This document shows, one piece after another, positions 39,393 through 40,875 of a stretch of 41,001 nucleotides of DNA. The number at the start of each line of letters is the position of its first letter. Position 1 is the stretch's first letter. The position numbers were made by a program, and so were the translations under genes. The stretch is taken from positions 1 through 41,001 of the forward strand of contig JACPEP010000021.1 in the NCBI GenBank assembly GCA_016183425.1. The letters are read 5' to 3'. The notes below the pieces were generated by a model. It searched no databases. It saw only the letters and a program-made list of their open reading frames with translations, and was not told where the DNA came from. Origin of the DNA: Chloroflexota bacterium. Its GTDB lineage: Bacteria > Chloroflexota > Dehalococcoidia > JACPEP01.

Positions 39393-40241
39393 TTGAAGGA
39401 CTACATTTCTCTTCTTAAGCTGAAGATAGTGGCCTTGCTGGTATTCGTGGCCTTGGCCACGGCAACAGTGGCGGGGGGAGGCCTGCCTATAGGGGAGCGT
39501 GTATTGCTTTTGGTGGTGGCGGGGGGATTGGCCTCGGCGGGAGCTACCGTTTTGAACCATTACCTGGATAGGGATATAGACGGGGTGATGGACCGCACCC
39601 GTCGCCGCCCCCTTCCCTCGGGCCGAGTGGGCTACCCCCGTCGTGTTCTAGGCCTCGGCGTTCTCCTGATAGCCTTATCGCTTCCTTTCTCGCTGCGTCT
39701 CAACCTTTATGTGGCTTTTTATACCCTTGCTGGAGCCTTCGTGTACGTGGTGGTGTACACCCTATGGCTGAAACGTCGTACCAAGTGGAACATCGTGGTG
39801 GGTGGGCTGGCGGGTAGTTGCGCTGCCCTGGCGGGGTGGTATGCCGTCAGCAACCAGCTCTCCCTGCTGGCCATCCTTCTGGCTGCCATTGTGTTTCTGT
39901 GGACGCCCTCTCATTTCTGGAGCTTTGCTCTGGTTCACCGCCAGGACTACGAGAGGGCGAACATTCCCATGTTGCCTGTGGTGGTGGGAGAGAAAAAGAC
40001 TGCCTGGAGCATCATGGTTTGCACGACACTCTTTTTTGTCGCCTCCCTGCTCCTCTACTACTACCGCTTTTTTGACCACATATACCTGGTAGCTTCTCTC
40101 CTTCTGGGCGCTTTATTCCTTCTCGGCAACCTCCAGCTTTGCTGCAACACCACAAAGAGCATAGCTTGGCGGAACTACAAGTACTCTGGCGTCTACCTTA
40201 TGGGCTTGTTCTTGGCCATATTTCTGGACCTGGCCATCTAG
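39393..40241 (+). CDS. cyoE: UbiA-family prenyltransferase, CyoE/CtaB (heme O synthase) type
   Basis: A 282-residue integral membrane protein with about eight or nine hydrophobic segments. The prenyl-diphosphate/Mg site is N-H-Y-L-D-R-D-I-D-G-V-M-D at 55-67 followed by R-T-R-R-R-P-L-P, and a second site is W-T-P-S-H-F-W-S-F-A-L near 170. The T-R-R-R-P-L-P and T-P-S-H-F-W motifs are those of protoheme IX farnesyltransferase, which makes heme O for terminal oxidases. TTG 39393 is taken as the start, preceded by GGGGGGAGAAGGG. No oxidase or heme A synthase gene is adjacent, so a related farnesylation cannot be excluded. Confidence 0.9.
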   Translation: MKDYISLLKLKIVALLVFVALATATVAGGGLPIGERVLLLVVAGGLASAGATVLNHYLDRDIDGVMDRTRRRPLPSGRVGYPRRVLGLGVLLIALSLPFSLRLNLYVAFYTLAGAFVYVVVYTLWLKRRTKWNIVVGGLAGSCAALAGWYAVSNQLSLLAILLAAIVFLWTPSHFWSFALVHRQDYERANIPMLPVVVGEKKTAWSIMVCTTLFFVASLLLYYYRFFDHIYLVASLLLGALFLLGNLQLCCNTTKSIAWRNYKYSGVYLMGLFLAIFLDLAI

Positions 40242-40301: not shown

Positions 40302-40346
40302 GGTTATGTCCTTCCGTGGTACGAAACAAACGAAGGGGGATGAGAC

Positions 40347-40739
40347 ATGCAACCGTCTGAAGTTGGCTACGCTGTGGAAACGAACAAATCCTTTGATGAG
40401 GCAGTGGAGGCGGTTCACAGCGCGTCGCAAGCCAAGGGTTTTCGGGTTTTGACTGTCCACGATGTCCAGGCCCTGCTAACAGAGAAGGGGTTTCAGCAAG
40501 GCCCGCTAAAGATTGTGGAGGTCTGAAACGCTAAATACTCCAGCCAGGTTCTGGCTGCCGATATTAACCTCAGCCTGTGTCTCCCCTGCCGTATCAACGT
40601 TTGGGTGGCAGAGGGCCGAACCTTCATTGTTGGGATGCGTCCCCTAATGTTGCGGCAGGTGTTCCCTGAAGTTTCTCTGGGCGGCTTGCCCGAGGAAATA
40701 GATGGCGTAATTCGGAGCATCGTGGACGCGGCCAAGTAG
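40347..40739 (+). CDS. DUF302 protein with in-frame TGA at a conserved Cys position (candidate selenoprotein)
   Basis: ATG 40347 follows GAAGGGGGATGAGAC. The frame runs to TGA at codon 60 (40524-40526) and continues without interruption to TAG at 40737-40739, giving 130 residues if the TGA is read. Before it: F-D-E-A-V-E-A-V, G-F-R-V-L-T-V-H-D-V-Q-A-L-L and K-I-V-E-V. After it: N-A-K-Y-S-S-Q-V-L and L-C-L-P-C-R-I-N-V-W-V, with Cys78 and Cys81. DUF302 proteins normally have Cys-Asn-(Pro/Ala) at this very spot. The unusual codon thus replaces a conserved Cys, as selenocysteine does. A hairpin suited to a SECIS follows. If TGA is a true stop, the product is a 59-residue fragment or a pseudogene. 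Confidence 0.7.
40534..40565 (+). promoter_or_regulatory. Candidate bacterial SECIS hairpin
   Basis: CAGCCAG (40541-40547) and CTGGCTG (40551-40557) form a perfect seven-base-pair stem with loop GTT. An outer AATA/TATT pairing (40534-40537 with 40562-40565) extends it. The loop starts with G and lies 21 bases after the TGA, within the range known for bacterial SECIS elements. It lies inside the reading frame, as bacterial SECIS elements must. Confidence 0.6.
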
Positions 40740-40747
40740 CTCAAAAA

Positions 40748-40777
40748 CTATACCCCAGGCTTAAGCCTGGGGTATAG
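40748..40777. terminator. Perfect palindrome after the DUF302 gene
   Basis: CTATACCCCAGGC and GCCTGGGGTATAG are exact complements with TTAA between them. On the minus strand the stem is followed by TTTTT, so it would terminate transcription coming from the right; on the plus strand the U-run is poor, although it sits nine bases past the DUF302 stop. Confidence 0.6.
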
Positions 40778-40803: not shown

Positions 40804-40875
40804 GTAGTCGGCATCGTCCCTGATGCCGACGGGGTCATGTAGTCGGGGTTAGGGACGCACCCGACTACATGGGCT
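40804..40875. repeat. Two-hairpin structured element, copy 2
   Basis: Hairpin 1 is TCGGCATC-GTCCCT-GATGCCGA (40808-40829). Hairpin 2 has a perfect 12-base-pair stem (40836-40847 with 40860-40871) and a loop containing AGGGAC. The two loops are exact complements (GTCCCT with AGGGAC), which would allow a kissing interaction. It is related to 20659-20735. Confidence 0.6.

Follow-up and report, generated by a model that had tools for sequence, protein, structure and literature searches.

DUF302 proteins (PF03625) are known structurally from 1q9u and 1j3m. A DUF302 protein of sox clusters has been proposed, without experiment, for trithionate oxidation (PMC5037610), a metal-resistance cluster is flanked by DUF302 genes (PMC7760498), and ccoG is adjoined by one DUF302 gene induced by microoxia (PMC6515984). 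Bacterial selenoproteins with an in-gene SECIS, such as FdhA and SelD, are described by a bSECIS model that requires an upper stem of 4–16 bp, a loop of 3–9 nt with G at loop position 1 or 2, a UGA-to-loop distance of 16–37 nt and an energy ≤ –7.5 kcal/mol (PMC13188914). The 2026 catalogue, which counts 119 families and subfamilies of prokaryotic selenoproteins, has no entry for PF03625/DUF302 (PMC13188914).

The window analyzed here, positions 1–41,001 of contig JACPEP010000021.1 of a Chloroflexota draft genome, contains a gene at 40347–40739 that resembles both groups. It shares with DUF302 proteins the whole-length fold, the E-[VI]-C-N and L-P-C motifs and a length of ~130 residues, but has UGA instead of a Cys codon at position 60. 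With FdhA and SelD it shares a UGA where homologues have Cys, a hairpin with an early-loop G at 16–37 nt, and SelB and tRNA-Sec genes in the genome; in contrast to known bacterial selenoproteins, it carries no UxxC or CxxU motif. We conclude that 40347–40739 very probably encodes a DUF302-family selenoprotein in which the UGA at 40524–40526 is decoded as selenocysteine (Sec). The initial annotation of this DNA stated that DUF302 is not known to have a firmly described Sec member, and our search of the openly accessible literature found no paper treating DUF302 as a selenoprotein. None of the NCBIfam 20.0 models matches the read-through protein.

The DUF302 frame and its UGA codon

The features of the locus, all on the plus strand, are as follows.
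40332..40339, plus strand: purine-rich tract GAAGGGGG, RBS-like as read from the sequence, 7 nt 5' of the ATG
40347..40739, plus strand: DUF302 gene (PF03625), 130 codons including UGA codon 60, stop codon TAG
40524..40526, plus strand: UGA codon 60, proposed Sec; 68/68 other distinct homologues have Cys at the aligned position
40541..40557, plus strand: SECIS-type hairpin CAGCCAG-GUU-CUGGCUG, 7 perfect pairs, G first in the loop; constraints from the published model (PMC13188914)
40587..40589, plus strand: codon 81, second invariant Cys (L-P-C motif), Cys in 69/69 sequences; candidate partner of Sec60

The frame runs for 59 codons to the TGA and for 70 codons from there to the TAG, with the read-through translation MQPSEVGYAVETNKSFDEAV...GPLKIVEV-[TGA]-NAKYSSQVLAADINLSLCLPCRINVW...DAAK-TAG. 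When the TGA was taken as Cys, the protein scored 54.4 bits against the Pfam DUF302 model (curated cut-off 23); the match covers 62 residues (38–99), and a UGA-terminated product would stop 22 residues into it. A read-through scan of the genome recovered the frame at 48.7 bits as the genome's sole DUF302 match. The single in-frame TGA in an otherwise complete 130-codon DUF302 frame, as first described for this locus, was thus confirmed, and no lesion besides the TGA was found. The upstream neighbor (39393–40241, plus strand) encodes a UbiA-type prenyltransferase (PF01040), putatively heme O synthase (CtaB). The DUF302 gene sits close to the contig end. Downstream of it, within the final 260 bases of the contig, perfect inverted repeats were noted at 40748–40777 (15-bp arms) and 40836–40871 (12-bp arms), the former with a minus-strand T-run and resembling a terminator in the minus direction.

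Homologues were collected from ~700 class and phylum genomes and by scanning GTDB species genomes. The TGA had been placed at a conserved Cys position of the family, and the alignment bore this out in every homologue listed above. Among >100 matching DUF302 frames in the ~700 phylum genomes, an internal stop was found only in 40347–40739; the case is a single instance, with no second UGA-bearing DUF302 in these genomes, and the internal stops in relatives that had been named as contrary evidence did not appear (0 in the related frames). The protein belongs to a subfamily with the signature Y-x-V-E-T-N-K-S-F-D-E-A. In the subfamily tree it groups (support 0.83) with two Cys proteins of DPANN archaea, amid Cys-bearing sequences, which suggests that a Cys-to-Sec replacement happened in this lineage. 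These nearest relatives come from Pacearchaeota and Woesearchaeota (L058, L059) and have in common with the 40347–40739 protein an extra Cys at codon 78 (S-L-C-x-P-C); tree position and common Cys together suggest lateral transfer. The DUF302 genes recovered from plasmid records (46 records) were all distant, at ~33% identity at best, and the viral contigs scanned yielded none.

Open frames spanning a TGA are common across the window, and the open frame alone was not counted as selenoprotein evidence. Codon usage picked one and the same frame before and after the TGA, the downstream frame being the best of six, and the AlphaFold model of the read-through protein (mean pLDDT 88) matched known DUF302 structures (TM 0.89 to 1q9u and 0.79 to 1j3m). 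The coding pattern reported to run 70 codons past the TGA to a proper stop is accordingly seen in homology, codon bias and predicted fold alike. Identity to 12 subfamily members was 12 points lower after the UGA than before it, compared with 5 ± 7 points in other pairs. Since this drop is within noise, relaxed selection past codon 60, which the initial annotation had listed as contrary evidence, is not demonstrated; neither does the comparison give positive support.

The SECIS-type hairpin and the selenocysteine machinery

The hairpin at 40541–40557 has a 3-nt loop and an energy of –9.7 kcal/mol, starts its stem 14 nt and its loop 21 nt after the UGA, and satisfies every published bSECIS constraint (PMC13188914). 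The initial annotation was right about the perfect 7-bp stem and the GTT loop, and its distance of 21 bases holds for the loop but not for the stem. The overall minimum free energy of the 83-nt region was unremarkable (z = –0.34); because this whole-region energy is uninformative, the SECIS-constrained hairpin and a synonymous-codon control were used instead. An equally stable SECIS-type hairpin arose in 1.1% of 20,000 synonymous rewrites of the peptide (2.0% reached –7.5 kcal/mol) and at 3.9% of window positions. At the equivalent site of six Cys homologues, five had no SECIS-type hairpin and the sixth (L011) had a weak one (–3.9). The SelD and FdhA genes of the same genome passed the identical hairpin test, and the apex in FdhA (GGCC-GGU-CUGGCC) is similar to that in the DUF302 gene (GCC-A-GGU-U-CUGGC).

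The draft genome comprises 2.7 Mb in 52 contigs, with 95.3% completeness and 0.3% contamination. It encodes SelB (325.6 bits, above cut-off, with the C-terminal match within the same frame) and a tRNA-Sec with anticodon TCA and a long, 8-bp bacterial-type acceptor stem (76.6 bits). Two further genes carry a TGA at a Sec site. The selD gene (G000:C34:35317-36237; 396.6 bits) has it at the active-site Sec/Cys codon (TRMARCAG-U-AAKFG) together with an 8-bp SECIS-type hairpin; small ORFs adjoining it resemble, by eye, TusA- and DsrH-type proteins. The formate dehydrogenase gene (G000:C50:28354-29607), whose product has N-terminal ferredoxin-like domains, has it in CARL-U-HSPS, the Sec position of the known U-H-x-P motif, with the hairpin GGUGGCC-GGUCU-GGCCACC (loop GGUCU). 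No SelA was found above threshold in the 95.3%-complete draft with models TIGR00474 and PF03841; the sole match at a permissive threshold (16.8 bits) was rejected as, by eye, a SufS-type cysteine desulfurase. SelA was found in 125/197 relatives of the class. The initial annotation had held that a genome lacking the sel genes would argue for a pseudogene or a sequencing error; this objection falls with selB, selC (the tRNA-Sec) and selD, all present, while selA was the one missing. An undetected selA beside selB, tRNA-Sec and TGA-bearing selD and formate dehydrogenase genes could reflect an assembly gap or an unrecognized Sec synthase. Because tRNA-Sec, SelB and the two other TGA-at-Sec-site genes require a Sec synthase, we attribute the missing selA to a gap in the draft, with SelA presumably existing in the organism; on this view it concerns the assembly rather than the DUF302 protein. 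The tetranucleotide composition of the contig correlates with that of the genome's other contigs at 0.974 and with pooled class relatives at 0.39; the contig is therefore not apparently mis-binned, and mis-binning was rejected.

Other readings of the UGA

Formation of a pseudogene, in which a TGC/TGT-to-TGA nonsense mutation inactivated the gene and left only a 59-residue fragment, is the alternative that survives best. It needs one substitution, conservation is somewhat lower past the TGA, and SelA was not found in the draft genome. However, starting from TGC at codon 60, the ORF can acquire a stop through 37 different single substitutions; five of these yield TGA, and just one of the 37 is TGA at codon 60. 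A decayed gene would also have to retain a frame free of further lesions and to carry a correctly placed SECIS-type hairpin by a chance of ~1%, in a genome that encodes the Sec machinery. We regard this reading as quite unlikely. A sequencing or assembly error over a TGC or TGT codon of an ordinary Cys-type DUF302 gene might be invoked for a 52-contig draft with the gene close to a contig end, but it must strike the sole Sec-plausible codon, next to a SECIS-type hairpin absent from the Cys homologues, and is very improbable. Read-through of the UGA by other means, as a code change to Trp, Gly or Cys or by near-cognate decoding, has nothing but the open frame in its favor and is scarcely credible given the tRNA-Sec(UCA) in the genome and Cys as the codon-60 residue in all homologues; as TGA is the ordinary stop of 10/29 window ORFs, reassignment of the genetic code was rejected.

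The selenoprotein inference made in the initial annotation is thus supported by the UGA on an invariant Cys, tRNA-Sec, SelB, the two further TGA-at-Sec-site genes, a hairpin that fits the bSECIS model, and an intact downstream frame and fold. The ribosome would read UGA 40524–40526 as Sec in place of the Cys borne by all other sampled members, with the hairpin recruiting SelB and Sec-tRNA(Sec).

Possible role of the probable DUF302 selenoprotein

In the predicted structure, residue 60 is the end of strand 54–60, just ahead of helix 62–71, and Cys81 starts the next strand. The end of a strand just before a helix is a common location of reactive thiols. Sec60, at this junction, may act as a nucleophile or metal ligand, possibly together with the invariant Cys81, in thiol/selenol redox or metal handling. 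A PDB fold search with the read-through model gave no link to thioredoxin. Genes neighboring subfamily members in other genomes encode FeoB, an iron-dependent repressor, a P-type ATPase, ArsR-type regulators, a pyridine-nucleotide disulphide oxidoreductase and a DsbA-type thioredoxin. At three loci (L056, L063 and the Nitrospirota locus L057), the DUF302-subfamily genes lie in a metal/redox neighborhood, with feoB, P-type ATPases, a disulphide oxidoreductase and an iron-dependent repressor close by. Since related genes have metal-transport and thiol-redox neighbors, a thiol/selenol redox or metal-handling step is suggested, and we favor it, with some reserve, as the likeliest role of DUF302 here.

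The protein probably founds a new selenoprotein family, a DUF302 fold in which Sec/Cys60 and the invariant Cys81 would form a redox or metal-binding center, linking a large family to selenol/thiol chemistry. It would add one more family to the ~119 prokaryotic selenoprotein families cataloged. Standard annotation truncates or drops genes such as this one. Selenocysteine is costly, and the Cys whose place it takes is, in known cases, almost always catalytic or a metal ligand; a Sec-containing DUF302 protein therefore indicates which residue is active in a widespread family. If the reading is true, it would suggest that the invariant Cys is the reactive center of DUF302 proteins, which are small and widespread in bacteria.
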